The notes beneath the pieces are model-generated. The model searched no databases, had not been told where the DNA came from, and saw only the letters and a program-made list of their open reading frames with translations. Below, in pieces: positions 15,600-34,323 of a stretch of 64,000 nucleotides of DNA (the first letter of the stretch is position 1; each line of letters begins with the position of its first letter). Both the position numbers and the translations under genes were made by a program. Source of the stretch: Pirellulales bacterium (lineage in GTDB: Bacteria > Planctomycetota > Planctomycetia > Pirellulales > JANQPP01); contig JANQPP010000071.1 of assembly GCA_028289405.1 (NCBI GenBank), positions 1-64,000 of the forward strand, in the 5' to 3' direction.

Positions 15600-16406
15600 A
15601 TGACGGATTCGCAGCCTTCGCCTTCGTTTCTCGCTCGCCACGAATTTCTCATTCGCCGGTTGCATTCGCTCAGCGGCCTCATTCCGGTGGGCGCTTATAT
15701 GGTCGTGCATTTGCTGACCAATGCCAGTGTGCTGGCGGGTGCCGCGACATTTCAGGCCAACGTGGATCGGATCCATTCGTTGGGACCAATTTTGCCGCTC
15801 GTGGAATGGACGTTCATTTTCATTCCCATTCTGTTTCATGCCATCTTGGGAGTGGCGTTTATTTGGGGGGCGGTTCCCAATACCAGCGACTACCCCTATT
15901 CCAGCAACATTCGGTACATGCTTCAGCGGGCCACGGGGATGATCGCGTTTGCCTTCATCGCTTTCCATATCTGGCACTTACACAAGTACGGCGAGCCCTT
16001 TGGCGGAGGCGCCTTCGACCCGCACCACGCCACTTCCACCGCCGGAACGGCTATCCAGTCCGCGTTATGGATCCAACTCGCCTACGCGGTCGGTGTCCTG
16101 GCTTGCGTCTATCATCTGGCCAACGGTATTTGGACCATGGGCATCACTTGGGGCGTGTGGACTAGTTCCGAGGCGCAGCGGAAGGCAAGCTACGCGTGCG
16201 GAGGATTTGGCGTACTTCTCGCGGTCGTGGGGCTGGCGGCGCTTAGCGGTTTTCGCATGGTGGATGTCGAGGAAGCCGCGGCGGTGGAAGATCGCCTGGA
16301 AACTCACCGAAAAATTGCCGAGGGTGAAGTGGCCTGGGGTGAAGAGGAATCCACCGAGGAGGGGTCCGAAACGTCCGGCGATTCACCAGATGTTTCGTCT
16401 CCCTAG
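15600..16406 (+). CDS. sdhC: succinate dehydrogenase cytochrome b558 subunit
   Basis: A 268-residue integral membrane subunit that anchors succinate dehydrogenase/fumarate reductase and carries haem b and the quinone site. It matches the single-polypeptide b558 type (Bacillus, epsilon-proteobacteria and Planctomycetota). The first helix has R-R-L-H-S-L-S-G-L-I-P-V-G with a candidate haem histidine, and further His occur in M-V-V-H-L-L, I-L-F-H-A-I-L-G, F-H-I-W-H-L-H and V-Y-H-L-A-N-G at the expected helix positions. Five membrane helices end near residue 215. The C-terminal 45 residues are a charged Glu-rich tail, longer than usual. sdhA and sdhB follow at 98 and 56 bases. Confidence 0.93.
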   Translation: MTDSQPSPSFLARHEFLIRRLHSLSGLIPVGAYMVVHLLTNASVLAGAATFQANVDRIHSLGPILPLVEWTFIFIPILFHAILGVAFIWGAVPNTSDYPYSSNIRYMLQRATGMIAFAFIAFHIWHLHKYGEPFGGGAFDPHHATSTAGTAIQSALWIQLAYAVGVLACVYHLANGIWTMGITWGVWTSSEAQRKASYACGGFGVLLAVVGLAALSGFRMVDVEEAAAVEDRLETHRKIAEGEVAWGEEESTEEGSETSGDSPDVSSP

Positions 16407-16504
16407 CCCGTGTTGAGCCAAGGTTTTTCGGGCGGCCACGTTTTCCTACCCGAATGTTCGTGGGAACGTCCGACGCCTCGAATTGAAAACAGAAAGTAAA
16501 CGAC

Positions 16505-18529
16505 ATGCCGAAACAACGGGTGATGGTCGTGGGCGGAGGTTTGGCCGGTTTGGCCGCCACCATGCGGTTCGCGGAAATGGGTATTCCGGTCGACCTCATG
16601 AGCCTGACCCCCGTGAAGCGTTCCCACAGCGTCTGCGCGCAAGGCGGAATCAATAGCGTCAACGACCAGACTCGTCAATTGGGCGACAGCGAGTGGAAAC
16701 ACTTCGACGATACGGTCTATGGAGGGGACTTTCTTCAGCACCAGCCCCCCGTGCATGAGATGGCCCTCTGGGCACCCAGAATCATCGACTTGATGGACCG
16801 TCTGGGTGTCCCCTTCAACCGCACTCCGGAGGGCTACCGCGATCAACGGCGATTCGGCGGCACTCTTTACAAACGCACCGCCTTTTCCGGTGCGACGACC
16901 GGACAGCAATTGCTATACGCCCTGGATGAACAGGTTCGACGCTGGGAAGCCGAAGGGCTGGTGACGAAGTACGAATTTTGGGATTTCCTCGGTCCGATCC
17001 TGGATGACAACGGCATCTGTCGAGGTTGCGTGGGCCAGAATTTGACCGATATGGAGATCCGGTCGTTCCCCGCCGATGCGGTGGTCTTGGCGACCGGGGG
17101 ATGCGGATTGATCTATGGCCGCTCCACGATGTCCATGGCGTGCAATGGCAGTGCCGTCAGCCGCGCGTTTCAGCATGGCGCCCTTTACGGAAATGGCGAG
17201 TTTGTTCAAGTACATCCCACCGCCGTGCCCGGCGCGGACAAGCTCCGCTTGATGAGCGAAAGCGCCCGGGGAGAGGGAGGGCGTGTCTGGGTGCCCCGCA
17301 AGCCACAGGACCCGCGTGATCCCAGGGAAATCCCCGAGGCAGAACGTTACTTTTTCCTGGAAGAACGTTATCCGGCATACGGCAATCTGGTTCCCCGCGA
17401 TATCGCCACGCGCGAGATCTTCAACGTTTGCATTTATGAAGGCTTGAGCGTTGAGAAAGAACGTCCCTGCGTTTACCTGGATTTGACCCACCTGCCTCGT
17501 ACTACGTTGGATTTAAAGCTAGGCGGCATTCTAGAGATTTACGAAAAATTCCAGGGTGTCGACCCGCGCGACGTGCCGATGAAAATTTTCCCGGCCGTGC
17601 ATTACACCATGGGCGGATTGTGGGCCGACTACGAACGTACCAGCGAGGGCCGCTTGGACATCGGTTCTCCGAAGAATCAAGCCACGAATATCCCGGGCCT
17701 GTTCGCCATCGGCGAGTGTGACTATCAATACCATGGCGCGAATCGTCTCGGCGCGAATTCGCTGCTGAGCTGTATCTTTTCGGGATTGATCGTAGCGCCG
17801 GGCATCGAAAATTTGCTCAAATCTTCCTCGCATGGCGCTAGCGACGATCAGCCGAGCAGCTTGTGGAACGCGGCGCAAGAGAAATACCAGCAAGAGCATG
17901 ACGCTCTGTTGAATCGCTCCGGGGGGGGCGAAAACCCGTATTTGATCCACCAGGAGTTGGGGGAAACGATGACCAAGGCAGCCACGGTCGTGCGGCACAA
18001 CCGCGATCTGTCGGCCGCACTTGAAAAAGTCCGCGAGCTACAGGAACGCACCAGTAGATGTTCGCTTTCGGATACGGGCAACTGGACCAACCAAAACGTG
18101 GTGTTCACCAAGGCTCTGCAAGACATGTTTCCCTTGGCGAAGACCATTTTGGAAGGCGCCCTGGCCCGGGATGAATGCCGGGGTGCGCACTTCAAACCCG
18201 ACTTCACCATGCCGGGCATTGAAGCGGAGGATCCAGCGGAACGCCGCCGCGAAGCGGAAAAGTGGTGCGACCGCTTTGCCGAAAATACGAAGAAGTGGCT
18301 CAAGTCCACCGTCGCCGAATGCGGAACAGATAGCGAGCCGAAATTGAGGTATGAGGACGTGGATACTTCGCTGATACCTCCGCGGCCAAGATTGTATGGT
18401 TTAGTAGGTGCCGAAGTCATTGAAGAAGTCTGGAAAGAACGGGTCGCCGCGGGCAGTCAAGCCACGTCATCACGGCCCAATGGCGAGAAGGCGGAGGCCA
18501 CCAAGCATTCCCCTTCCACGGTAGGTTAG
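16505..18529 (+). CDS. sdhA: succinate dehydrogenase flavoprotein subunit
   Basis: The 674-residue FAD subunit that oxidises succinate to fumarate in the TCA cycle (or the reverse). The N-terminal dinucleotide motif is V-V-G-G-G-L-A-G-L-A-A near residue 8. The FAD-linking His region is H-S-V-C-A-Q-G-G-I-N near 40. Active-site regions include G-E-F-V-Q-V-H-P-T-A and S-E-S-A-R-G-E-G-G, and the capping segment H-Y-T-M-G-G-L-W. H-G-A-N-R-L-G-A-N-S-L-L-S closes the FAD site. The length is on the long side and fits the Bacillus-type enzyme. It is the second gene of sdhCAB. Confidence 0.96.
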   Translation: MPKQRVMVVGGGLAGLAATMRFAEMGIPVDLMSLTPVKRSHSVCAQGGINSVNDQTRQLGDSEWKHFDDTVYGGDFLQHQPPVHEMALWAPRIIDLMDRLGVPFNRTPEGYRDQRRFGGTLYKRTAFSGATTGQQLLYALDEQVRRWEAEGLVTKYEFWDFLGPILDDNGICRGCVGQNLTDMEIRSFPADAVVLATGGCGLIYGRSTMSMACNGSAVSRAFQHGALYGNGEFVQVHPTAVPGADKLRLMSESARGEGGRVWVPRKPQDPRDPREIPEAERYFFLEERYPAYGNLVPRDIATREIFNVCIYEGLSVEKERPCVYLDLTHLPRTTLDLKLGGILEIYEKFQGVDPRDVPMKIFPAVHYTMGGLWADYERTSEGRLDIGSPKNQATNIPGLFAIGECDYQYHGANRLGANSLLSCIFSGLIVAPGIENLLKSSSHGASDDQPSSLWNAAQEKYQQEHDALLNRSGGGENPYLIHQELGETMTKAATVVRHNRDLSAALEKVRELQERTSRCSLSDTGNWTNQNVVFTKALQDMFPLAKTILEGALARDECRGAHFKPDFTMPGIEAEDPAERRREAEKWCDRFAENTKKWLKSTVAECGTDSEPKLRYEDVDTSLIPPRPRLYGLVGAEVIEEVWKERVAAGSQATSSRPNGEKAEATKHSPSTVG

Positions 18530-18585
18530 CCCTGCTCGGCCTTCCAGTATTCCGGTAGCTCGACGAGTAGGATGCGAGTAAACGT

Positions 18586-19434
18586 ATGATCAGTCCAGCC
18601 AAGCAGTCGATTCCTGATGTCTTTGATGTCCGTATTTTGCGGCAAGACGGTCCGGGAGAAAAAAGCTACTGGGAGCGCCACCGCGTTACCCACCAGCCGG
18701 ATATGAACGTGATCAGCGTTTTGCAGCAAATCGCCGCTCGCGCGGAAACGGAGGAGGGGAAAAAGGTTTCGCCAGTCGCCTGGGATTGCAACTGCCTGGA
18801 AGAGGTGTGCGGTGCCTGCACGATGCTGGTCAATGGCCGCACTCGGCAGGCTTGTTCGGCGCTTGTGGATAATCTGCTGCAAGAACAGCCGGATGGAATC
18901 GAACTTCGCCCGATGAGCAAATTCCCCGTTGTGCGAGATTTGGTCGTGCAACGCGACCGGTTGTTTCGAGCACTCAAAAAAGTCAAAGCTTGGGTTTCGG
19001 TGGACGGGTACTTCGACCGTGGCCCTGGACCGCAACAGTCTCCCGCCGACCAGCAGACAGCCTACCCGTTAAGCCAATGCATGAGTTGCGGCTGTTGCTT
19101 GGAGGCTTGCCCGCAATACACGAAGATCGAGGTCACGCGCCGCGAAGGAGAAAGCGAGGCCGATTTCAAAAAGCGTGAAGCAGCCGCTTTCGATCGCGGA
19201 TTTATCGGCGCTCACGCCATTAGCCAGGCGATACTCTTCAATATCCATCCCACCGGCAAGATGAACGCCGGTGAGCGGCTCGATGCTCTGACGTCCGAAG
19301 GCGGTCTCCAGATCTGTGGCAATGCCCAAAACTGTGTCGCCGTCTGCCCCAAGAGTATCCCGCTCACCACTTCCATCGCCCGCGCGGGTCGCGCCACCAC
19401 GTTGCATTCCTTGAAGAAATTCTTTGACCGGTAA
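18586..19434 (+). CDS. sdhB: succinate dehydrogenase iron-sulfur subunit
   Basis: A 282-residue protein carrying three Fe-S clusters that relay electrons from the flavin in SdhA to the quinone site in SdhC. The [2Fe-2S] site is C-N-C-L-E-E-V-C-G-A-C near residue 65-75 and has an extra acidic pair compared with the usual C-R-E-G-I-C-G-S-C. The [4Fe-4S] site is C-M-S-C-G-C-C-L-E-A-C-P near 165, and the third cluster uses C-G-N-A-Q-N-C-V-A-V-C-P near 245. All ligands are present. It is the last gene of the operon and converges on the kinase-tubulin gene after about 95 bases. Confidence 0.95.
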   Translation: MISPAKQSIPDVFDVRILRQDGPGEKSYWERHRVTHQPDMNVISVLQQIAARAETEEGKKVSPVAWDCNCLEEVCGACTMLVNGRTRQACSALVDNLLQEQPDGIELRPMSKFPVVRDLVVQRDRLFRALKKVKAWVSVDGYFDRGPGPQQSPADQQTAYPLSQCMSCGCCLEACPQYTKIEVTRREGESEADFKKREAAAFDRGFIGAHAISQAILFNIHPTGKMNAGERLDALTSEGGLQICGNAQNCVAVCPKSIPLTTSIARAGRATTLHSLKKFFDR

Positions 19435-19529: not shown

Positions 19530-22500
19530 TCAGGTAGCACACGGCTCTTGAAGCTTTTGCCACTCCACATCGGAACGCGTTCTAAGACGAGCTGCCGCTT
19601 GGATGTAGTCGTCGCGCCCATTAACGAGAGACGCCGCGATGGGGGCTAATGGCAATTGTTCCGCTTCCCAGCAAATCGTGAAATGAGACTGGTTGGACGC
19701 GATGTGGGTTGGTTCCACGCCGCCGGTCGCGGCCACCAAAGCTTCGCGTAACCGATCCTCGGCGGCCTGTTGGGGCGTGACGAGTAGCAAGCGCCGGATT
19801 CCACCACTAAAGAGCAGTGAAGGATTCGCGGCCTGTACGAGTTGCTTCAAATCAATGACGGGGCCATCCGCCGGTTCTTCCTCTTCTTGGTCCGGTTCCG
19901 ACGAGGCAACCACGGCCTCCACGACGTCGATGGATTGGAAGATTTCCGAGACCAATCTCCCCGCCATTTGCCGCGCGGCATCAATGAAGGCATCTCGCGC
20001 TTCTTGGCCATGCGCCCCCAAGTGTTCAATCCCTTCAGCGGGCTGCATGTATTGCTCCTGGAGTTCCTGATCCATTCGGGCGGAGAACTCGGAGCGGTTT
20101 TTTTCGAATTCATGAATCGCACGAGAAGCGACCCAGGCGGCGCCATCATCTTGCTGCTCGTAATCCGCCAAGACGGAATCCCATGAGGCGGGAGCACGAA
20201 ACTCTTTCCCGATTTGCGAGAGTTCATGGCGTAAATCGGACACCCGATCCCGCTCGGCCGTAAGATTGGAACCCATCGTGTGAAATGATTTGCGGGCCTT
20301 CAGCAAAAGGCTCTCATGAACCTTCCTCTGCAAATAGAAAGCGAGGCATTCAGTTAGTTGCGAGATCTCTAGGTTATATGCCGCCAGCGTGTTCTTCTTT
20401 TTCTTGTCAGTCACGCCAGTGGGGATGGCCGCGACGAATTCCTTGATCGTGTGTTGTATTTGTGCCAATTTTTCCGCGAGCAGCGTGTCCTGCAATTCGG
20501 AGGCTTCTGATAGCTTTTCAATCAGCTTTTGCGCGGCGGTGAAACGGCGACCGGGAGTATTCATTACAGTGTGCAGTAGTTCCCGGATCTCGTTCTTCCA
20601 TCGAGAAATTCTTTCGCCGAAGTGATCGACCATCCGCTGCTGAAGATCGGTGACGAACTCGATCTCCAAGTTCGCGATCTCGCTGCCCGGAGAAAAGGCC
20701 GTATTCAGCGTGATAATGCCCTTGCGCAATAATTCCCAGTTCTCTTCTCCGCCATAGCGCTCTCTGAGCCAGCTTTCGACTTCCTTGGCGCAGGCCAAAG
20801 TGATCTTATGCGGTTCCGCCGTCAGCATGGGCTGCAATTCTTCATCCAGTGGGCTCAACACACCCTCGAAGAAAGATTCCACCGACAGCGGGGACTTCTC
20901 TTCGGTCGACGAAGTTGAACCCTCCTTGGGGTCAGAATTCGCCTCTTCGCCGCGCTTCTTGCCTCCCAATACCGTCGTGGAGCGGGGAGTTTCCGTCCAA
21001 TGCCGAACCACGTGGGAAGCTAGAGATTCAGCCATCAGCGCCGTGGCTTGCGGGCATGAACCGCCAAATTCGCTTGTCCCGAACGAGCGCAGGCTGGCAC
21101 GCTCCATTCCTTTTCCTGGTTGTACGGCATCGTTCCGGCAGCGTTCGAAATATCCACCGCCGCAGGTCACGTCGAGATACAAATACGTGGCCACGTTGTT
21201 GGCGGCGGAATTCAACAATTCATCGTTCAGCCCATCCCCCAAATGCACAAGGTAATCGTCGCCAAAAAACTCGGCGGCGGCTGGCAACGCGGAGAGCCCC
21301 AATGCTGGCTCTCCTGGATGTCCACCACCGTATAAGTAGTGGTGGAGTTCTTCCAAGCAAGCATATGCGTTCGCCGAGGCCAAATCCTTGCCCGTGGTCC
21401 GCCGGTTAGTGGAATGTAACAATAAAGTCGCGACATCCGCCTTGGAGAGGCCCGCCTTCACCAACAGATCTCGGGCTAGGAATGCCAAATCCGGAATCAT
21501 CCCGCTGCCCGTGCCGCCGGCAATCGAGCCGAGCAATACGATCCGCGGGCACTCGTCTCTTACTTCTAGGCCCAAAGACTGGGACGTGGCTTGGATCGAC
21601 TCGGGGTTGCTCAATTGCCGCAACGACTTTTGGAGGCGGTCGACCACGATGTGGGCATGGTCGATCAAAGCAAGCCGTCCGAGAGGACGCAATCCTTCCG
21701 TTTGTAGCGATTTGGGAATGTTGTAGAGCCATCTCCGGCTCAGCCAGGAAAAGAATTTTTGCGTGTCGGAGCGGTAGTCCTGTGGGCGTCGCAGAGGCGT
21801 GGCGATCAAATCCTCGGGAGCGAGTCCCTTTCCTTCTGGTCCCCGTGCGAATTTCAGCATCGATTTCTGATCGGTATCAATCAGCAGCGTCCGCAAGGCC
21901 GGCAATTTTTGCGGATCCCCGAAATGCTCTTCCAGGCGATGCCTCAGTTGTTGCAGGACGCGGCCTGCCGTTCCGCCTACTCCCAGTACCAAAGTCGGCC
22001 GAAACCCGATCGAAAATTCTTCTGGAGAAAACCCATCGACGTCCACGACATCCGGCCGAACCATATTGCCCACGATCTCGGTGGGCCGCACGCTAGGCAC
22101 AGCCGAACCGGGCATGACTTCCGTTGCCATATGGGCAGGAGAAGCCTCTGACCGCAAATTCGTGGAGCGAATTGCCGTGTTATGCTGAAGATCCGGCGTG
22201 CCCCCCGCTCCGTGCTGAATCTCCGTTCGCGCGTTGGGATCGGACCGAGATGCGCTCGACACGTCTTCTGGTGCGGTATTGGGAGCCGCCGGTGGAGACG
22301 CGGCTACCTGGCCGGCGCTGAGCAACGTATCCACGAATTCCTTGCAGGACGCGAAACGTTCTTCTGGCTTTTTGGCCAGCGCCCGGGCCACCACGGCCTG
22401 GTCGGACAATGGCAAGCCCGCCAAACGAGGCCGGCTTTGCAAGTGCTGCACGGCGAGTTGAGCCGCCGTGGTTCCCGGGAACGGCAGCACCCCGGTCAGC

Positions 22501-23114
22501 ATTTCCTGGTATACGATCGCCAAGCTGTATTGGTCACTATGGCGGCTAGGCTGATCATCGAAGGACTCGGGCGAAGCATAGACCGGGGTGAGTCCGCCCA
22601 TGAGCGACACGTTCGTCGCCTCGATGTCCTTGACGAGCCCGAAGTCGGCAACTTTGACCCGCCCGCCGAGCAACAACAGGTTCTCGGGTTTCACGTCGAG
22701 ATGCTGCAGGGCATGCTTCTCGTTCATGAAATCCAGCGCGTCCGCCGTATCGCGTAAATAAACCAATAACTCCTCGCGCGGAATGCCGCTGAGTCCTTCG
22801 ACTTTGCATTCATCGAAGCGCTCTTTCAGGCTCATCTCCGCCAATTCGGTGACGATCACCAACTGGCCGTCGACGACTTCAATTCGCTCCAAAGAGAGCA
22901 GGAATGGGTGCCGAACTTCCTTGACCCGGTTGAGCGCCTTCAGTTCTCGCGAGGCCCGTTCGTCGTCGAGGAATCCATAGACGAATTTGATGGCCTTGGT
23001 CAGGCCACCCGGCGCCGAAGCTCGCCAAACTTCACCGTATCCCCCGGTTCCGATCCTTTCGGAAATTGTGTATCCCAAGATGGGTTCATCGGAAGTGAGG
23101 GTCAGGTTTCGCAC
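19530..23114 (-). CDS. serine/threonine kinase fused to a tubulin-like domain
   Basis: A 1194-residue fusion. Residues 14-270 are a Hanks-type kinase with glycine loop G-T-G-G-Y-G (22-27), lysine K43, catalytic loop H-L-D-V-K-P-E-N with D140, and D157-F-G; the usual Arg before the catalytic Asp is Leu, so it is a non-RD kinase. After a low-complexity linker (270-365), residues 370-760 form a tubulin/FtsZ-like GTPase domain: a Rossmann start G-V-G-G-T-A-G at 378, L-I-D-T-D at 411, and the signature G-G-T-G-S-G at 533-538. The C-terminal 430 residues look helical and coiled. No membrane segment is visible. It lies 54 bases after the FHA gene on the same strand, so the FHA module may read kinase phosphorylation. 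Whether it polymerises is unknown. Confidence 0.88.
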   Translation of the reverse strand: MRNLTLTSDEPILGYTISERIGTGGYGEVWRASAPGGLTKAIKFVYGFLDDERASRELKALNRVKEVRHPFLLSLERIEVVDGQLVIVTELAEMSLKERFDECKVEGLSGIPREELLVYLRDTADALDFMNEKHALQHLDVKPENLLLLGGRVKVADFGLVKDIEATNVSLMGGLTPVYASPESFDDQPSRHSDQYSLAIVYQEMLTGVLPFPGTTAAQLAVQHLQSRPRLAGLPLSDQAVVARALAKKPEERFASCKEFVDTLLSAGQVAASPPAAPNTAPEDVSSASRSDPNARTEIQHGAGGTPDLQHNTAIRSTNLRSEASPAHMATEVMPGSAVPSVRPTEIVGNMVRPDVVDVDGFSPEEFSIGFRPTLVLGVGGTAGRVLQQLRHRLEEHFGDPQKLPALRTLLIDTDQKSMLKFARGPEGKGLAPEDLIATPLRRPQDYRSDTQKFFSWLSRRWLYNIPKSLQTEGLRPLGRLALIDHAHIVVDRLQKSLRQLSNPESIQATSQSLGLEVRDECPRIVLLGSIAGGTGSGMIPDLAFLARDLLVKAGLSKADVATLLLHSTNRRTTGKDLASANAYACLEELHHYLYGGGHPGEPALGLSALPAAAEFFGDDYLVHLGDGLNDELLNSAANNVATYLYLDVTCGGGYFERCRNDAVQPGKGMERASLRSFGTSEFGGSCPQATALMAESLASHVVRHWTETPRSTTVLGGKKRGEEANSDPKEGSTSSTEEKSPLSVESFFEGVLSPLDEELQPMLTAEPHKITLACAKEVESWLRERYGGEENWELLRKGIITLNTAFSPGSEIANLEIEFVTDLQQRMVDHFGERISRWKNEIRELLHTVMNTPGRRFTAAQKLIEKLSEASELQDTLLAEKLAQIQHTIKEFVAAIPTGVTDKKKKNTLAAYNLEISQLTECLAFYLQRKVHESLLLKARKSFHTMGSNLTAERDRVSDLRHELSQIGKEFRAPASWDSVLADYEQQDDGAAWVASRAIHEFEKNRSEFSARMDQELQEQYMQPAEGIEHLGAHGQEARDAFIDAARQMAGRLVSEIFQSIDVVEAVVASSEPDQEEEEPADGPVIDLKQLVQAANPSLLFSGGIRRLLLVTPQQAAEDRLREALVAATGGVEPTHIASNQSHFTICWEAEQLPLAPIAASLVNGRDDYIQAAARLRTRSDVEWQKLQEPCAT

Positions 23115-23168
23115 GTTGGTTGTCTCGTACGCGAGAGTGATTCCCTAGAAAAGGGAAATTGCATTTTT

Positions 23169-24329
23169 CTAGCGTCGGCCGCGGGGGAAGAACGAAGCCA
23201 GATCACGGATCGGAACAGGCGAGCTAAAAAATTCGCCCGATGCGAGTTGACAGTCGAATTGCTGGCACAAATCGGCCTGGATCGCGGATTGCACACCGGT
23301 GGCGATGACTTGACAATCGGCTTCTCGTCCTCGCTGCACAAGGTTTTCAAATTGCTTTTGCGCTTGGGAACCTCGGTCGCTTCGTTGCACGACCGCTGGG
23401 TCGAGCAGCAAATATTCGGGAGCCGCCTGCTCGAGTGCATCCCAGGCATGGAAACTCGCAGAAATGCCGCCGTAAGCAACGGAGACATCCCGGTCACGCA
23501 GACGAGCGTGAATACTTTGGAATTCTCCTTCCGCCTCGAGGACGCGCGCCGGAAGTTCCATGACGAGTTGCTGTCGCAGGTCAAGGCGCTCTCGCAAGGC
23601 ATACAGATCATCGACAAAAGTGGGATCCACCAATTCTGCGGCGTAAAGTCGCAGAATCGCGAACAACTTTGCCGGAACGTTCGAGAATTCCTCCGCGGCG
23701 ACCATACGTTGAAGCTGAAGCACGCGCCGCAACAACCGGCTGTGGGCCATTTTCAGGCTGCGTTCCACCAGCTCTTCCACATCGGCGGAAGCGAAGGAGT
23801 TTCCTTCAAACTCACAGCCCACGTACTCCTCCGTACCGAGATTTCGAATGGGCCGATATAGATTGCTGACGCAACGCTGTGTGACGAGTTCATGCAATCG
23901 CCGAAGCTGCAGCACGTTCCGTGAGGGACGCACCACGACTGGTTCGGGAACCGTTTCTTCTGAACGCAGGACTTGCGTAACGTTTTTCGACGACACGGAA
24001 GACGTTTCCCAGCGAAAAGCCATTTCGACATCCGCGAAGGCGATCATGTCGCCGTTCTGCAGCGTCGCCTTCTGAATACGCCTGCCATTGACATGCGTGC
24101 CGTTGGTACTGTTGAGATCTTCCAGGCAAATCACGTCGTCGGCGTGACGGAAGACGGCATGCTCCCTAGATACGCGGGTGGATTCGATGCGCAAATCGGC
24201 CGTGTCTCCGCGGCCGACGGTAAATGGGAAACAGGCGATCTCCACATGTTCTGGCAGACCGGCAACGTCCGAAACGCGATCCAGACAAGGGGAGGTCGTC
24301 GAAGGCTCATGGAGGCATTGTGTCTTCAT
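23169..24329 (-). CDS. FHA domain fused to a degenerate EAL domain
   Basis: A 386-residue cytosolic protein. Residues 31-108 are an FHA domain, a phosphothreonine reader, with V-G-R-G at 38, S-R-E-H-A at 54 and N-S-T-N-G at 73. Residues about 150-380 follow the EAL phosphodiesterase fold throughout, but the active site is gone. The EAL motif reads E-F-E (173-175), the catalytic D-D-F-G is A-Y-G-G (285-288), the K of K-x-D is Leu (L308), and A-E-G-V-E is A-T-G-V-Q (343-347). It therefore should not cleave c-di-GMP but may bind it or a partner. It is the likely first gene of a unit with the kinase-tubulin gene and is divergent from a pseudo-GGDEF gene. Confidence 0.82.
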   Translation of the reverse strand: MKTQCLHEPSTTSPCLDRVSDVAGLPEHVEIACFPFTVGRGDTADLRIESTRVSREHAVFRHADDVICLEDLNSTNGTHVNGRRIQKATLQNGDMIAFADVEMAFRWETSSVSSKNVTQVLRSEETVPEPVVVRPSRNVLQLRRLHELVTQRCVSNLYRPIRNLGTEEYVGCEFEGNSFASADVEELVERSLKMAHSRLLRRVLQLQRMVAAEEFSNVPAKLFAILRLYAAELVDPTFVDDLYALRERLDLRQQLVMELPARVLEAEGEFQSIHARLRDRDVSVAYGGISASFHAWDALEQAAPEYLLLDPAVVQRSDRGSQAQKQFENLVQRGREADCQVIATGVQSAIQADLCQQFDCQLASGEFFSSPVPIRDLASFFPRGRR

Positions 24330-24908
24330 CGCGCTATCCGCTGGATGAATTCGATTGTAACCATGTACGAGGGTAAACAGCCCTTCATATCCGAGGACGA
24401 AGCAAATGATCCATCAGCGGGCTTTCGAAAATTCTCTGATAATGCAAATAGAGAGGCGTGTCTGGTCTAGGACTTGTCGCGTGAAAATAAATTCGTTCCG
24501 TGTATGAAATTTTTTGGAAGCCTACTTGACCGCGCTTCCAGCGTACGCGCCGCACATTGGGTCACCATCCCTGCGGGTGCCAGGCGGTGAAGCGGATGTG
24601 TCTGCAATACCGCCTCGCCATGCACGGCTTTTCAACTATAGCTTAAAGCCCATGGCCAAATGCTCCTTTTCTGTTCGGTTCACAGCCTCTCTTGCTACCG
24701 AGAGACCGAAGTTGGCCATGGACTTGAAGTTCCGTCTCCAAGCGGAGAATCGCTGGACACAGGGCGTGACCGGCAGATTGTCGGATTCCAATTCCGCGTG
24801 CTAACTCGTGTGCTGGAATAACTCAACCTGGGAAAGCATGTACTAAGATTGGAAAGCCACGCTTTGCGCATGCTAAAGCCTTGCCACGAAATTCGAGCCA
24901 CCCACACC
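24330..24908. other. divergent intergenic region, no supported gene
   Basis: These 579 bases separate the leftward FHA/kinase unit from the rightward pseudo-GGDEF gene and should hold both promoters. I found no strong promoter pair, hairpin or RNA gene. Open frames inside it (such as 24514-24804) have no family features. Confidence 0.6.
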
Positions 24909-26321
24909 ATGAGTAGTCATATGCTCACTGTCTTGGCCGTGACGCCGGATCGACAAATGTCACGTTATTTGACCCGATGTTTGTCCGCTTTCGGCTACGA
25001 GGTCTTGCAGGCCACCGATGGCCAAAGTGCCCTGTCGGCCTTTCGTGGATACCACATCGACTTCCTGCTATTAGACAGCGAGCTCCCCCAGGAGACACAG
25101 GAGCAGTTATTTTCCCAAACGGGCGACCGAAACGCCGACCAATCGGCATACACGATCTACCTGCAAGATGCGGAACAAGAATCGCAAGACGCCTCCGAAG
25201 GTTCGGATTGGCCTGCCGATGACATGCTGAAGAAGCCGGTGGTCGTCGGAGAGCTGTTGGCCCGGCTCCGTGCCGGTGCACGAGTCCTGGAATATGAACG
25301 ACGTCTGCAGAATTTGAACGGCGTGGATCACGTCACCGGAACGTTGCACGTGAGCGAATTTCACCAACGTCTCGCTGGCGCGATTGCGTTGAATTCCGAG
25401 AACACAGGCGCCGTCGCCGCGTTGGATGTCGATTTTTTCGAAGGCCTCACCAACGCCTATGGGGCATGCGTGGCCAACCGTGTGTTGCGGCAAATTGCCG
25501 ATATTTTGAACACGCATTGCACGGACGGGGCGACGCTGTCGCGTTTGGAAAACAATCTCTTCGCGATCTTGCTTCCGGGAAATAACGTGCAAACCGCCAT
25601 CGCATGGGCAAACAAAGCTCGAGAGGAAATCGCGTCCACGGATTTCCAAATCGGCAGTGAATGGCCGAGAATCACGGTTAGTTCGGCGGTCGCCAGTTGG
25701 GGCCGGGGCCAAGTCACTCCTGGTGACGTGATCAAACGGCTGCGTGAGGGAGTTCGAAACGCCAAAGCCTCGGGAAGAAATTTGGTCGTGGATTGCCAAG
25801 CCATTCGCCAGGAGACTTCTGAGATGTCGGATTTGGCACTTCCCGGAAAACTCTTTGAGAACACGACGGCGATCGACATCATGACCCCGGTAGTCTTGAT
25901 GTTGCGTGGAGATGACTCGCTAGAACGGGCTACCGCCCTTTTTGAAAGCACGGATTTGCCAGCGCTGGTTACTTGTGATCACGGGGGTAAATTTTTGGGA
26001 GTATTGACTCGAGAGGACATCGAACAACTTCCTGCGGAAGACCGTGAATCCACGCAGGCTCAAGGGTACTTGCAAACGGATGTCAAATGTTTCTCGGACT
26101 CGGCCAACTTTTCGGAATTGATGGAATTCTTCACGAAAAATGCGGATTCATTGGCCGTTGTGACCGAAGACGAAGAGCCCCTAGGCCTGATCAATCGGAA
26201 TTCATTGGTCGCACTAAGTATGCCTCTGAACGACCGATCATTCGCTCCTCGAGACGCGCGTCGCTCGTCGAGCGACTATCTGCGCGTACCGGATCTTTGC
26301 GCGGTGGGCGACGTGGCCTGA
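24909..26321 (+). CDS. receiver / pseudo-GGDEF / CBS protein
   Basis: A 470-residue protein. Residues 6-125 are a receiver-like domain with D56 at the phospho-acceptor position and K108/K109 near the conserved lysine. Residues 140-300 follow the diguanylate cyclase fold (A-L-D-V-D-F-F-E-G-L-T-N-A-Y-G corresponds to the usual D-x-D-x-F-K-x-x-N-D-x-x-G), but the signature G-G-D-E-F is replaced by E-N-N-L-F at 214-218, so it cannot be an active cyclase. Residues 320-435 are a CBS pair beginning I-M-T-P, which usually senses adenylate nucleotides. The start is ATG 24909, the first methionine before the receiver fold; 24921 is also possible. It is probably a regulator paired with the next gene, which has the same domain order and an intact cyclase site. 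Confidence 0.82.
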   Translation: MSSHMLTVLAVTPDRQMSRYLTRCLSAFGYEVLQATDGQSALSAFRGYHIDFLLLDSELPQETQEQLFSQTGDRNADQSAYTIYLQDAEQESQDASEGSDWPADDMLKKPVVVGELLARLRAGARVLEYERRLQNLNGVDHVTGTLHVSEFHQRLAGAIALNSENTGAVAALDVDFFEGLTNAYGACVANRVLRQIADILNTHCTDGATLSRLENNLFAILLPGNNVQTAIAWANKAREEIASTDFQIGSEWPRITVSSAVASWGRGQVTPGDVIKRLREGVRNAKASGRNLVVDCQAIRQETSEMSDLALPGKLFENTTAIDIMTPVVLMLRGDDSLERATALFESTDLPALVTCDHGGKFLGVLTREDIEQLPAEDRESTQAQGYLQTDVKCFSDSANFSELMEFFTKNADSLAVVTEDEEPLGLINRNSLVALSMPLNDRSFAPRDARRSSSDYLRVPDLCAVGDVA

Positions 26322-26540: not shown

Positions 26541-28199
26541 ATGGATTCACATTTTCGTCAAATCCTGGTCGCGGAGAGCGATCCGCATCTGCGGCAACAG
26601 TTATCCGCCTACTTGTCAGCTTCGGGCTATCAGGTGAGCGAAGCCTCTGATGCGGACGAGGCGTTGCATCTCGCCCGACGGGAATGCCCTCACTTTCTGA
26701 TTGCGTCCGAAAAGTTGGCCAACGGCAACGGCATGGAACTTTGCCAGCGGATCCGTGAGTCCATTCTGCCGCATTACGTTTACATGATCCTCCTCACGGA
26801 GCAAGAAGGGGACAACACTCGTCTGGCGGGACTCAAATCCGGCGCCGATGATGTGCTGCCCCAACCTTGGGATCACGAAGAACTTCTCTGGCGACTCTGG
26901 ACCGCGGACCGGATTTTGGCACGGGAGCGCCGGCTTTCCGAGCTCGCCATGACCGATGCGCTTACGGGAATTCCCAATCGCTTGCGGTTCACCGAAGCAC
27001 TCGCCCGTGAATTCGAACGCGCCCTCCGGCATCAGGCGCCACTCTCCTGCGTGCTAATCGATTTGGACCATTTCAAGACCATCAACGACCTGCATGGCCA
27101 TGCCGTGGGAGATGCCGCGATCAAGGCCGTCGGGCTGTTATTGAGCAGCCACAGTCGAGTCTGGGACCATGTGTGCCGGTTCGGCGGTGAAGAGTTTTGC
27201 GTCGTGCTCCCCGAAACTTCCGCCGAAGAGGCGGTCCGATGGGGAGAACGGATGCGCGCATCCATCACGAATCTGGATGTCAGGGCGGGTAGCGGTTCGG
27301 TCAACGTGTCCGCCAGCTTTGGCGTGGCATCACGGGACGAAGGAACGCGAAGCGTCAAGGACATGCTGGCTCGCGCGGACGACGCCCTACGGTCGGCCAA
27401 ACAAGCAGGGCGAGACCGGGTCTGGCATGCCTCCTGGCGGAAAGACGCAGGCAACCATTCTCAGGGCGAGGTGGCTCGGGCTTTTGATCCCTTCGCGGAC
27501 AAACAGGCCCGCGATATCATGATGTGCCCCATCATAACGCTGAATGAATCGGATACCGTAGCGACCGCCGCGGACTATTTCCTGCGGATGCGGGTAAATT
27601 CCTTACCGATTGTCAATGATGTCGGGTTATTGACCGGCATTATTTCGGAAAAAGACTTGATGATTCTCGACCTGGTGGGAGACGCCTGGAAAACCCCCGT
27701 CCGCCAGGTGATGAAAACGAATGTTGTCTCCTACGAGGAAAACACGCCGGCCCGCATTGTTTACGAATTCCTCTGCCGCCTGACCATTCGTCGTGTGATT
27801 GTCGTGCATCAAGGAAAACCGGTGGGCGTGATTAGCCGGGGAAGCATTCTCCGCTGGTTCGGCAATTGGGGAGAAATCCGAGAATACCTTCCCCGAGAAG
27901 AGCGTTTGGCCTCCGAAGAATTCCATCATCGGCGGTCCAAAAGCCTGTTGGTGGAATGGGTGCAACGCCTGGCGACTCAAGTTTCCGAACTCCAGCGCAC
28001 GGTTGCCATGGATGAATTCGACTTCGTGCCCAGCGTGGTCGATCATGCCACTCGGATTCAAGAACTGACCAACGATCTGTTGGCCAGCACGCAGATTCAC
28101 TATTTCGCGGCAGCCGATTCGGTACGCGGAATACCGCCGCTGCCGGTACCACCGGTCGTATCCTCACCGGAAACTCCCGACGACGCTTCTCGACGATAA
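26541..28199 (+). CDS. pseudo-receiver / GGDEF / CBS diguanylate cyclase
   Basis: A 552-residue protein with the same layout as its neighbour but the opposite defects. The receiver (residues 6-125) has Ser at the phospho-acceptor position (S56) and Gln instead of the conserved Lys (L-P-Q-P), so it should not be phosphorylated. The GGDEF domain (135-297) is intact: D-L-D-H-F-K at 174, G-G-E-E-F at 215-219, and the allosteric I-site R-V-W-D at 206-209, exactly five residues before it. It should make c-di-GMP with product inhibition. Two CBS repeats follow (323-380 with D-I-M-M-C-P, and 385-440 with V-M-K-T-N). The C-terminal 100 residues are helical, then Pro-rich. It converges on holA. Confidence 0.88.
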   Translation: MDSHFRQILVAESDPHLRQQLSAYLSASGYQVSEASDADEALHLARRECPHFLIASEKLANGNGMELCQRIRESILPHYVYMILLTEQEGDNTRLAGLKSGADDVLPQPWDHEELLWRLWTADRILARERRLSELAMTDALTGIPNRLRFTEALAREFERALRHQAPLSCVLIDLDHFKTINDLHGHAVGDAAIKAVGLLLSSHSRVWDHVCRFGGEEFCVVLPETSAEEAVRWGERMRASITNLDVRAGSGSVNVSASFGVASRDEGTRSVKDMLARADDALRSAKQAGRDRVWHASWRKDAGNHSQGEVARAFDPFADKQARDIMMCPIITLNESDTVATAADYFLRMRVNSLPIVNDVGLLTGIISEKDLMILDLVGDAWKTPVRQVMKTNVVSYEENTPARIVYEFLCRLTIRRVIVVHQGKPVGVISRGSILRWFGNWGEIREYLPREERLASEEFHHRRSKSLLVEWVQRLATQVSELQRTVAMDEFDFVPSVVDHATRIQELTNDLLASTQIHYFAAADSVRGIPPLPVPPVVSSPETPDDASRR

Positions 28200-30359: not shown

Positions 30360-30866
30360 GCGATTTAGCCCTCCACGCGGATTGATGAGGAAAGGTCGAA
30401 CCAGTCTCTCCCTATTTACTCAATGGCACGCACGACGGCCAGAGGCGGAAGCCAAGGATTCGCGCCTTCATCAGTGTTCAGTACGTGACAGCTCTTCTGA
30501 TTCACACGGCATCAGCGGCAAACCGCTCAATTGTGAATTCGGGCTTCCGTCGAACTGCCGCAGCCCCAAAACCGGCATCGGAGCTTGGGCTCAGCTTGGG
30601 CTCACTAGGCCACGGTCAAGAATCGCAACCGCTCCGACTGTGCAAGACATAGCGAAGATTTCATTGATCGCCCCGGAAAAGAGTTAGAAAAATCGGCGCG
30701 TATTTCCAGGTTCTGGCATTGGCTTTTTGCGAACACGCCATGACTTTTTGGAGTATTCTCGGAAAACGACGTACACTTATCGAAACCAAGATCCAGCACG
30801 CCAAGCGGCCAGCAGTTGGACACTGTCATAGGGTACTTTTGGCAACTCAGACTTAGGCATCATTGC
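30360..30866. other. divergent intergenic region
   Basis: These 507 bases lie between the leftward oxidoreductase and the rightward receiver-GGDEF gene. Apart from a short tandem repeat at 30582-30603 I see nothing definite: no RNA gene, no clear promoter, and the open frame 30316-30687 overlaps the oxidoreductase start and has no family features. Confidence 0.6.
30582..30603. repeat. perfect 11-bp tandem duplication
   Basis: AGCTTGGGCTC occurs twice in direct contact (30582-30592 and 30593-30603). It may be simple slippage or a two-copy binding site. Confidence 0.6.
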
Positions 30867-31793
30867 ATGGAGCACCCGATTCAAATCCTGCTTATCGAAG
30901 ATAGTGATTTCGACGCCAAACTGGTCGCCAATGTGCTAAGGCGTACGCCGGAGCTTCAGGTATCCCTTGATCACGTGGAATCGCTGGGGACGGCGGTCGC
31001 GACCCTGCATGAGAAGCATTATGACGTGGCCATCCTAGATCTTGGTTTGCCCGACAACGCGGGCCTCGAGGCCGTCCCGAAGCTGAAAGCTGCGGCGCCA
31101 GCCACCCCGGTCGTCGTGCTCTCGGGCCAAAATGATGACGAAATTGCCGTGGAGGCGATTCGCCGCGGTGCTCAAGAATATCTTTCCAAAGAACACGTGA
31201 TGGGCCATCTTTTGGTCCGCGTTGTGCGTCATTCGATAGCCCGGCAGAAGCAGCTTATCGATGCCCAAGCCCAAGCACTAACGGACGTCTTGACCGGCAT
31301 CGGAAACCGTCGAGCTTTCGATATGGAATTGACACGTCGACTAGGAGATTTCGCGCGGCATCGGACCCCCGTTTGCGTGGCGATATTCGATATCGACCAT
31401 TTCAAACGTATCAACGATACCAGAGGACATGACATCGGCGATCAAATCATCCAGCAAGTGGCGTCAACCCTGGAAAACGAGGTGCGGGCCACGGACTTGG
31501 CCACCAGGTTTGGAGGGGAAGAATTCGCCGTTATTTTTCCTTCGACCCGTTTGACGAAAGCCACGCCTGTCGCGGAAAGAGTTCGTATCGCGATCGGACG
31601 CGAGTGCGATAAACGCGAAGATCTGGACGTCTCGGTAACCACGAGCTGCGGGGTCGCGGAGGTGGTTAACGGAGAGGACGGGCAATGCCTGCTGCGACGC
31701 GCGGATGAGGCCCTTTATGCCGCCAAGGATCATGGGAGGAACTGTTGCCAGGTCCATACCGGACAGCATGTCCAGCCCATGCAATTCGCCTAA
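30867..31793 (+). CDS. receiver-GGDEF response regulator, diguanylate cyclase
   Basis: A 308-residue two-domain cyclase of the PleD/WspR kind without extra domains. The receiver (residues 5-125) has acidic pair E11-D12, phospho-acceptor D58 in A-I-L-D-L-G and K108. The GGDEF domain (135-300) has F-D-I-D-H-F-K-R-I-N-D at 174, the intact site G-G-E-E-F at 216-220, and the inhibitory I-site R-A-T-D at 207-210, five residues before it. It should convert two GTP to c-di-GMP when phosphorylated, and be product-inhibited. ATG 30867 is chosen because the receiver begins at once after it; the frame extends to 30816 without conserved sequence. It stands at the head of a large cluster of receivers and kinases. 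Confidence 0.92.
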   Translation: MEHPIQILLIEDSDFDAKLVANVLRRTPELQVSLDHVESLGTAVATLHEKHYDVAILDLGLPDNAGLEAVPKLKAAAPATPVVVLSGQNDDEIAVEAIRRGAQEYLSKEHVMGHLLVRVVRHSIARQKQLIDAQAQALTDVLTGIGNRRAFDMELTRRLGDFARHRTPVCVAIFDIDHFKRINDTRGHDIGDQIIQQVASTLENEVRATDLATRFGGEEFAVIFPSTRLTKATPVAERVRIAIGRECDKREDLDVSVTTSCGVAEVVNGEDGQCLLRRADEALYAAKDHGRNCCQVHTGQHVQPMQFA

Positions 31794-32282: not shown

Positions 32283-32747
32283 ATGACGAACACCATGACC
32301 ATCAACTCGACACCTCTATCTCAGCATGATCTGTTTGCGACGAAAACGCCTCGCATTCTGTGCGTGGATGATGATCCGGATTTTCAAACCACAATCGAAC
32401 TCCGCATGCGGAACTACGACGTGGAAATAGAGCATGCATTCTACGGAATGCAAGGAATCGCCGAGGCAATGCATTCCTCCCCTGACTTGATCCTCGTCGA
32501 CTTTGCAATGCCCAACGGCAATGGCGAGTATTTTTTGGATTGCATTAAAGGACACGACACCACGGAGCATATTCCCGTGATCGTGCTCACCGGCATGCGC
32601 GATCCCATGCTGAAGAATCGAATGCTTCATGCTGGAGCGTCGGTTTTCTTACAGAAGCCAGTCCAATTTGATGAGTTGTTGCATCACATCAGCCGATTCA
32701 TTCATCTTCGCGAGGCCAACTCTTTGGGAGGCTTGAATTATGAATGA
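32283..32747 (+). CDS. stand-alone receiver domain protein
   Basis: A 154-residue response regulator with only a receiver domain (residues 22-145) after a 20-residue polar N-terminal tail. The acidic pair is D29-D30, the phospho-acceptor D73 (L-V-D-F-A-M-P), and the conserved lysine K125 in L-Q-K-P. No output domain is present. The start is ATG 32283, with AAGGA upstream; a TTG at 32265 is also in frame. Its last eight bases overlap the start of the receiver-histidine kinase gene, so translation is probably coupled and it may exchange phosphate with that kinase. Confidence 0.9.
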   Translation: MTNTMTINSTPLSQHDLFATKTPRILCVDDDPDFQTTIELRMRNYDVEIEHAFYGMQGIAEAMHSSPDLILVDFAMPNGNGEYFLDCIKGHDTTEHIPVIVLTGMRDPMLKNRMLHAGASVFLQKPVQFDELLHHISRFIHLREANSLGGLNYE

Positions 32748-34323
32748 GGGGACCGTGAAGGTGCTCCTGCTGGAAGATGACGTGGATGACTATCGCCTCG
32801 TGGCCAAACGGCTCCGCCAAGAGCGGTGCTACTTTTCCATCGACTGGGCGGAGACCTTGCAGGCGGCCATCGAAAGGCTCAGCCGGCATTCTTACGACAT
32901 CGTGCTGGCTGATTTGTCCGTGCCCGACAGCTTTGGACTCGACACGGTTTCTAGCCTCCGGAAACGGAGTGGCCGGACTCCAATCATCATACTGACATCC
33001 CTCGACGACGACACCTTGGGAAGTGATATCCTCACCGCCGGGGCTCAAGATTATCTCGTCAAGGGGGAGCTCGGCGGCCGTGCCGTACCCCGGGCCATCC
33101 ATAACGCTATCCAACGGCAGCAAAGCCTAACCGAGATCAACAACTTGTTGGCTGAAGTGAACGCAAGCCGGGAGTTGCTAGCCGAGCAAACTCAGCTTCT
33201 GGAAAGCAAAAATAGAAGGCTGCGCAAACTCTACAAAACGGCCCACCGGTTTGTGGACAATGTCTCGCACGAATTTCGCACTCCGCTCACCGTGGTAAAG
33301 GACTACGTGACACTCGTGCGTGATGGATTGGTTGGGGACGTAAATGACGAACAACGCCGAATGCTCGATATCGCCGGAGTGCGGGCAGATGAGTTGAACA
33401 ACATGGTCGACGATATGCTCGACATCAGCAAACTAGAATCCGGTTTGTTAGGGGCTTGGCGGCGTAACTGCCACGTATCCGACATCATTCATTCGGTTCG
33501 CCCGGTTCTCGAAGCGAAAGCCAAGGTCAAGGACATCGAATTCCATATCTCACTCGATGAAGACCTCCCACAGGTGTATTGTGATCAAGACAAAGTAATC
33601 CGTGTTATCATCAACCTCGTCACTAATGCCATGAAGTTTTGCGGGGAACCAGGTTCGGTTCAACTGTGGGCTCAGCAAAACGACAGCCCTCCAGAAGTCG
33701 TGGTTGGCGTCACGGACAATGGGCCAGGAATCGGTGAAGAGAGATTGTCCGAAATATTCAAACGATTCAAGCAATTGGAAACCAACTTCAAAGATAGCGG
33801 CAAGGGTTTTGGCTTGGGCTTAAGCATTGCCAAGGAGCTGGTTGACCTGAACTTCGGCGAGATGCACGTCGAAACGGAATTGGAACGGGGCAGTACCTTC
33901 TCTTTCACCTTGCCCGCGGCTCGGCCGGTGGAAGTGATGCGGCGATACCTGGAAAGAGCGGCCCGCTTGGGCCACGATTCGACCGTCGTGTCCTTTGTTT
34001 CGGCTTGCGTTCATGACTCAGTTTGCGAAAGCGCATCGGAAGATTTGAACGCTTTTTTTAACTACCTCTTGCGACGAAACGATCTACTATTCCAGCGCGA
34101 CAGCCATTGCTGGCTGTACATCGTCCCCACTCCTAGGCTGGAACTCAATCGTTTCGTGGCCCGCGCCGGCCGTGAATGGCAAAAAACGAACCGCAATCGA
34201 CCTTTCGGCAAACTGCCAAAATTTGAAATGCAAGTTGAAGGCACGTGGGCTATCGCGGATCAACACGAAGTCATTCTCGATCAGTTTTGCCACTTGTTCG
34301 GAAAAGAGGCCGTCCATGCGTGA
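32740..34323 (+). CDS. hybrid receiver-histidine kinase with C-terminal extension
   Basis: A 527-residue soluble kinase with an N-terminal receiver (residues 6-125, acidic D13-D14, acceptor D58, lysine in Y-L-V-K-G-E). A coiled linker (126-170) follows, then a HisKA domain with phospho-acceptor H177 in N-V-S-H-E-F-R-T-P and a HATPase domain (280-392; N box N-L-V-T-N-A-M-K-F, G1 D-N-G-P-G-I-G, G2 G-K-G-F-G-L-G-L). Residues 395-527 are an extra module I do not recognise with certainty; its spacing (V-V-S-F-V-S, then R-R-N-D-L-L-F, then W-L-Y-I-V-P) resembles a degenerate GGDEF-type fold. There is no sensor or membrane region, so input probably comes through the receiver. It overlaps genes on both sides. 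Confidence 0.9.
   Translation: MNEGTVKVLLLEDDVDDYRLVAKRLRQERCYFSIDWAETLQAAIERLSRHSYDIVLADLSVPDSFGLDTVSSLRKRSGRTPIIILTSLDDDTLGSDILTAGAQDYLVKGELGGRAVPRAIHNAIQRQQSLTEINNLLAEVNASRELLAEQTQLLESKNRRLRKLYKTAHRFVDNVSHEFRTPLTVVKDYVTLVRDGLVGDVNDEQRRMLDIAGVRADELNNMVDDMLDISKLESGLLGAWRRNCHVSDIIHSVRPVLEAKAKVKDIEFHISLDEDLPQVYCDQDKVIRVIINLVTNAMKFCGEPGSVQLWAQQNDSPPEVVVGVTDNGPGIGEERLSEIFKRFKQLETNFKDSGKGFGLGLSIAKELVDLNFGEMHVETELERGSTFSFTLPAARPVEVMRRYLERAARLGHDSTVVSFVSACVHDSVCESASEDLNAFFNYLLRRNDLLFQRDSHCWLYIVPTPRLELNRFVARAGREWQKTNRNRPFGKLPKFEMQVEGTWAIADQHEVILDQFCHLFGKEAVHA

Follow-up and report, generated by a model that had tools for sequence, protein, structure and literature searches.

A kinase-tubulin fusion and an FHA-EAL protein form a conserved gene unit in planctomycetes, with two forms of the FHA-EAL partner

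Kinase-tubulin and FHA-EAL genes of the window

The 64,000-nucleotide stretch of planctomycete DNA analysed here (contig JANQPP010000071.1, hereafter the window) carries two adjacent genes on its reverse strand, one encoding a protein kinase fused to a tubulin-like domain (kinase-tubulin fusion, KT) and the other a forkhead-associated (FHA) domain joined to a degenerate EAL domain (FHA-EAL protein, FE). These genes form a conserved unit in which FE occurs in two forms. The open reading frames (ORFs), and the gap of 54 bases after which KT follows FE on the same strand, had been proposed in a preliminary description made from the letters of the window, and both were confirmed. The features of the two genes are as follows.

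19530..23114 (-): KT, 1194 amino acids (aa), GTG start; kinase, linker, Tubulin_2 (FtsZl1) domain, helical/coiled-coil region and a small alpha/beta end domain, from Pfam and the secondary structure of the model
22320..23072 (-): Hanks-type kinase domain of KT (PF00069); HLDVKPEN (non-RD), DFG present
22002..22313 (-): KT linker, residues 268-371, mostly of low confidence in the model
22113-22127 (-): ATEVM in the KT linker
22071-22085 (-): PTEIV in the KT linker
21006..21992 (-): Tubulin_2 domain of KT (PF13809, 118.9 bits)
21501-21518 (-): GGTGSG of KT, residues 533-538
19899..20882 (-): long helical region of KT, residues 745-1072, from the secondary structure of the model; coiled coil read from helix lengths
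23169..24329 (-): FE, FHA and degenerate EAL, 386 aa, from Pfam and the structure model
24036..24221 (-): FHA domain of FE (Pfam)
23967..23981 (-): VTQVL of FE, right behind the FHA domain; TQVL matches the motif of the KT linker (see below)
23217..23741 (-): degenerate EAL of FE (Pfam stretch)

In KT, Pfam recognised Pkinase at residues 15-265 (96 bits) and Tubulin_2 at residues 375-703, the latter far above its curated cut-off of 27 bits. The glycine loop, Lys, Glu, catalytic Asp, Asn and DFG of the kinase are invariant across 49 proteins (alignment A2), and on these residues KT classes as a Hanks-type Ser/Thr kinase; profile score and T4 loop place it in the FtsZl1 (Tubulin_2) family. The fusion of a kinase to a tubulin/FtsZ-like domain with an intact GGTGSG, as it was first described, is thus borne out. 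The structure model of KT has a predicted local distance difference test score (pLDDT) of 83 and a predicted template modelling score (pTM) of 0.64. The genome of the window holds a single copy of Tubulin_2.

The Pfam matches of FE are FHA at residues 37-98 (71.2 bits) and EAL at residues 197-371 (66.5 bits, profile positions 65-236). Residues G39, R40, S54, H57, N76, G77, N81 and G82 of the FHA domain are invariant in 50 proteins (alignment A1), and with the Gly, Arg, Ser, His and Asn of the phosphopeptide face present, the domain classes as a phosphothreonine reader. The FE model (pLDDT 83) retains the EAL fold and matches EAL phosphodiesterases in the PDB; its matches include 2r6o (TMt 0.85, the best among the matches listed) and 4lyk (0.78). 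The residues of the EAL domain have largely been replaced. Three of the 12 scored positions are unchanged, one being the Glu in ExL, another the Glu in the 'VMELP' strand and the third the Asp two past the Lys position; of the eight catalytic residues, two remain. The Arg of ExLxR is changed to N, the Asn to R, the second Glu to A, the Asp pair to GG, the Lys to L, two later Glu to T and Q, and the Gln to S. Judged by these residues, the window EAL does not class as a phosphodiesterase of cyclic di-GMP (c-di-GMP). Residue scoring and Pfam hence agree with the earlier claim of an EAL domain without its Asp pair, Lys and Glu beside an FHA domain. The same genome encodes a second FE away from KT (L200 9185-10336), in which all 12 EAL residues are present.

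Genomic linkage and the two forms of FE

To place the pair in a wider context, 120 KT/tubulin neighbourhoods were examined in addition to the window. The order set (presumably Pirellulales) comprised 88 Tubulin_2 places, reduced to 84 neighbourhoods by leaving out the window, G593:C242 (added afterwards as L292) and G579:C96 and by merging two pieces of G675. Family f4 contributed 15 of its 19 places (G713, G486, G449 and G699:C161 being left out) plus G194, and 20 places in other families of the class were picked from the class list. Three loci of the order (L125, L158, L159), at which in-house profiles detected no tubulin domain, stand outside the linkage counts. At E 0.001, Tubulin_2 was present in 14 of the 294 genomes sampled from the phylum (11 above the curated cut-off). 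The class had it in 138 of its 297 genomes, the order in 82 of 196, and family f4 in 18 of 81.

An FE gene lies at most 2.5 kb from KT in 73 of the 79 kinase-bearing fusions of the order, window included. At each of the six exceptions the contig ends no more than 2.2 kb away in the direction in which FE is absent or incomplete, and at two of them a truncated FE is visible. In family f4, FE stands beside all 15 kinase-bearing KT; in the other families of the class it is near 1 of 22 KT, with one more farther off. The kinase-less tubulin genes (three in the order, one in f4) are all without FE. Counted by genome, 73 of the 196 members of the order have both Tubulin_2 and FE, 9 Tubulin_2 alone, 5 FE alone and 109 neither (Fisher p 5e-37, uncorrected for relatedness; FE cut-off about E 1e-66, the FE matches of G591, G602 and G598 being partial). 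Among the nine genomes with Tubulin_2 alone, three lack the kinase by in-house profiles (G461, G570, G640), two have weak tubulin matches (G337, G586), one has a good Pfam match that the in-house profiles missed (G488), and three have their loci at contig ends (G601, G643, G645). The preliminary description had made its proposal depend on the two genes co-occurring in other genomes, and they are indeed rarely apart: KT and FE form a conserved unit.

Several arrangements were seen beside this pattern. Genomes of family f108 (Gemmataceae-like, as far as we can place it) have one to four Tubulin_2 matches each, commonly two or three, and tandem KT pairs occur at five loci of the set from other families of the class (L176-L195). 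In five genomes an intact FHA-EAL gene adjoins a kinase of about 960-970 aa (L283-L287), and at L294-L296 such a gene adjoins a bigger kinase ORF.

When 87 FE proteins were scored at the 12 EAL positions (those shorter than 330 aa, at L160, L087, L128 and L076, being left out), the scores were bimodal. Form A, with 12 of 12 residues, accounts for 46 proteins; form B, with at most five of the eight catalytic residues, for 41, the window included; no protein falls between them. To judge from these residues, the EAL of form A looks intact and that of form B looks dead. No scored position is kept in half of the form-B proteins: the best retained is the second Glu (19 of 41), and the Gln is kept in 11, the Glu of ExL in 10, the Lys in 7, the Asn in 3 and the Arg of ExLxR in 2. 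In place of the second Asp of the Asp pair, 28 of the 41 have Gly, a more uniform change than the other losses.

The forms also have their own gene layouts. Each of the 41 form-B genes is directly upstream of KT and on its strand, with no AAA gene in between; in the 46 form-A cases an AAA gene adjoins KT or FE follows KT (L161 and L175 have no labelled AAA gene but a gap of 1.4 kb). Away from KT, 31 distinct FE were examined, the second copy in the window's genome among them, and every one has 12 of 12 EAL residues. Both fusion forms are found together in four genomes (G352, G367, G626, G593). The two forms offer a natural comparison, with the same partner active in one and dead in the other.

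The ratio of nonsynonymous to synonymous substitution rates (dN/dS) was 0.01-0.30 for the form-B EAL (40 of 42 pairs computable) and 0.03-0.10 for the form-A EAL (7 of 8 pairs computable), numerous synonymous distances being high or saturated. Such values indicate that the dead EAL of form B is still under selection, perhaps weaker than that on form A. Because the scored positions are not kept while the domain is selected, a structural role is favoured over a retained c-di-GMP pocket.

Two further gene families recur at these loci. In 121 clustered stretches, an AAA protein was found at 75 loci, which makes this ATPase a frequent third partner of KT and FE, and a GGDEF family at 45 loci (47 genes). 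With a single AAA protein as query, relatives turned up in 139 of the 196 genomes of the order; at E 1e-148 or better, a threshold set after the table had been seen, they were present in 71 of the 82 Tubulin_2 genomes versus 0 of the 114 others, and the linked AAA genes of G443 and G600 (split in G600) fall short of it. The AAA protein itself gave weak, general AAA matches only, and its N-terminal part is, in our own reading, winged-helix-like. The relevant genes of the window and its genome are these.

24849..26321 (+): divergent gene with a response regulator part, a GGDEF-like domain that has LENNLF and lacks the motif, and two CBS stretches
26541..28199 (+): response regulator, GGDEF (GGEEF kept), CBS; a neighbour for which no membership of the unit is claimed
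L198 9221-10567 and L199 8845-10365: AAA relatives in the genome of the window; the L199 copy resembles the widespread version

A labelled divergent gene of the GGDEF family is present at 36 of the 41 form-B loci; it lacks the GGDEF motif in all 36, and the window gene at 24849-26321 is the best match for 32 of the 35 others. Six GGDEF genes were labelled at form-A loci; all six have the motif and are of a different build, with no clear receiver part.

As for the surroundings of the pair, the window has a signalling island on the (+) strand (26541-28199, 30816-31793 and 32740-34323) with two response regulators bearing GGDEF domains with GGEEF, and a third one that, as read from the translation, is fused to a histidine kinase. 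Three ORFs at 15600-19434 (+) resemble, again by translation, succinate dehydrogenase subunits.

A shared threonine motif and the proposed mechanism

A motif of the type T[QE][VLIM][MLIFV] recurs in the linkers of KT and in FE. It was found in 11 of 45 KT linkers of form A and 9 of 41 of form B (means of 0.88 and 0.99 in shuffled linkers, none of 1000 shuffles being as high), which adds up to 20 of the 86 linkers of FE-linked KT, about 1.9 being expected. KT linkers without a scored FE had it in 1 of 9 cases in the order (0.18 expected), and those without FE in other families in 1 of 20 (0.41 expected). In FE the motif follows the initial Met in 25 of 40 distinct form-B proteins versus 1 of 46 of form A, and lies behind the FHA domain in 12 of 41 versus 0 of 45. 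The window has it as ATEVM and PTEIV in KT and as VTQVL in FE. A motif common to the KT linker and FE suggests docking; as it was picked after these sequences had been viewed, and as the shuffles ignore the relatedness of the rows, it is to be taken as a lead and not as a blind test.

Regarding the tubulin part, T1-, T3- and T4-like stretches can be read in it, and it may bind GTP. Across 122 KT/tubulin proteins the T4 loop is exactly GGTGSG in 52 and GGTGGG in 29, and is altered further in the remainder.

From these results a mechanism may be proposed, to which we give a probability of roughly 0.45: phosphorylation-controlled assembly around a tubulin-like GTPase, with the KT kinase driving the FHA docking of FE. 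The kinase would phosphorylate threonines in the motifs of its own linker and of FE, and the FHA domain of FE would either dock onto the phosphorylated KT linker or fold back onto the motif of FE itself, the latter being the off state. In form A, KT would in this way recruit a phosphodiesterase whose catalytic residues are all present, usually near the partner AAA ATPase; in form B, FE would connect KT with the response regulator-pseudoGGDEF-CBS protein as a docking scaffold. The state of assembly would be set by GTP on the tubulin domain. For form B we put forward, tentatively, that the c-di-GMP-making and c-di-GMP-breaking domains, both dead in one locus, have been retained by selection as paired non-catalytic scaffolds that are read through phosphorylation around the kinase-tubulin GTPase. 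The proposal builds on linkage, domain composition, residue loss, low dN/dS and recurrence of the motif, from which we infer phosphorylation, docking, control by GTP and a part for the divergent gene alongside the KT-FE pair.

Besides the way the motif was chosen, a number of observations weigh against this mechanism. The N-terminus of the window FE (KTQCL) is off-motif, and in its written form the motif is absent from 66 of the 86 linkers of FE-linked KT. With GGTGSG exact in no more than the 52 proteins and clearly altered in several, GTP binding is perhaps not general. The layout rule is broken by L292, where an intact FE is directly upstream of KT, and the two AAA relatives of the window's genome sit on other contigs, unlinked to KT. 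Several of the form-B dN/dS sets exceed those of form A, which fits a partly relaxed selection. The absence of an adjoining FE from 20 of the 22 KT of other class families indicates that the fusion can function without it. Finally, a single origin of form B is unsupported: KT trees scatter the form over several clades, and the approximately unbiased (AU) test of a single form-B clade was split, with p-AU 0.106 (not rejected) for 28 form-B rows and 0.0197 (rejected) for 22 of these.

The preliminary description inferred a unit in which a tubulin-like polymer or switch is under the control of phosphorylation and c-di-GMP; on this view the pseudo-EAL would act on KT as a receptor of c-di-GMP. The genes do belong together; c-di-GMP control is weakened for the window's form, and we consider the receptor role unlikely. 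LapD and FimX are non-catalytic EAL receptors, and both are among the EAL matches of FE, whose model keeps the fold (2r6o, 4lyk); moreover, GGDEF genes lie near KT and FE in the window, two of them with GGEEF kept. However, the pocket positions that were scored (other ligand contacts being unscored) vary over the 41 form-B proteins, which weakens the receptor role, and the motif of the divergent GGDEF-like gene is lost in all 36 cases.

It is also unlikely that KT is a cytoskeletal polymer whose filaments are regulated by FE. Tubulin_2 belongs to the FtsZ/tubulin superfamily, and filaments were judged likely for FtsZl1 by family habit in the excerpted text of Makarova and Koonin (PMC2875224); a long, predicted helical region follows the tubulin domain in our model. 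A profile of 32 tubulin parts, compared with PDB sequences, aligned T1 and T4 with the CetZ-like 3zid and the FtsZ 4b45, but weakly (E 0.19 and 5.5). According to the same excerpt T6-H7 could not be confidently identified in FtsZl1 (PMC2875224), and the only NxDxx[DE] string of the window KT, the T7 candidate, spans residues 726-731, where the model is of low confidence. A fold search of a viral library with the whole KT model listed 50 matches, all kinases or unnamed, and is thus uninformative on the tubulin part.

It is improbable that the unit is a defence-like (conflict) system of the tubulin/GTPase type. Such systems include, in the part of PMC7159879 cited here, tubulin-coiled-coil proteins that have vWA and GTPase partners, and the KT kinase domain matches kinase models of PADLOC, e.g. 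PD-T4-6 and mad6. These matches are, however, confined to the kinase domain, with none in FE, and among the 30 largest neighbour clusters only KT, FE, AAA and GGDEF exceed 12 loci, although no search for vWA or GTPase domains was made. That the pseudo-EAL is a relic on which selection is weak or absent, the FHA domain alone being of importance, is very improbable: its losses vary by lineage and its dN/dS is above that of form A in several sets, but the low ratios in 40 of 42 pairs and the fold retained in the window model disfavour it.

Comparison with known systems

The kinase-tubulin fusion itself has been published before (PMC2875224, PMC9871819, PMC11032199), so that the preliminary statement that no such system is described holds for the conserved unit only. 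In the account of FtsZl1 by Makarova and Koonin of 2010, as excerpted, the Tubulin_2 domain is followed by a coiled coil and four planctomycete members have an extra N-terminal kinase (PMC2875224). A reviewer remarked there that a diguanylate phosphodiesterase gene, Psta_0487, adjoins the FtsZl1 gene of Pirellula staleyi, to which the authors replied that such neighbours, present in one or a few organisms, cannot be implicated (PMC2875224). In contrast, the FHA-EAL neighbour reported here is conserved across many families. The vWA, GTPase and OmpA partners of the published FtsZl1, as far as that text gives them, are not among the four recurrent neighbours at our loci, where no dedicated domain search was made. 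Surveys of planctomycete kinases report that tubulin-like domains are the commonest partner exclusive to cytoplasmic kinases and that planctomycete Tubulin_2 can carry an N-terminal kinase; the excerpts cited mention neither FHA-EAL, nor the AAA partner, nor the two forms (PMC11032199, PMC9871819).

Our search of open-licence papers found no description of the KT-FE unit or its two forms, nothing relevant on the pairing of FHA with EAL, in planctomycetes or elsewhere, and no function for the FtsZl1 family since 2010. As far as the literature was searched, what is new is thus the conserved unit around a known fusion, together with its two forms. For planctomycetes, most of which lack FtsZ to our knowledge, it provides a conserved and testable connection between a kinase, a tubulin-like GTPase and domains of c-di-GMP metabolism.

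Two known systems come close to parts of this unit. GarA and OdhI of actinobacteria are small FHA proteins that answer to a Ser/Thr kinase by an FHA switch mechanism, and the FHA domain of FE matches their structures by sequence. Unlike them, FE has an EAL domain as well, and its partner is a kinase-tubulin fusion; phosphorylation of FE is a prediction. With LapD and FimX, FE shares the EAL fold; it differs from them in that the scored pocket positions of form B are unconserved and in that an FHA domain takes the place of their input domains.

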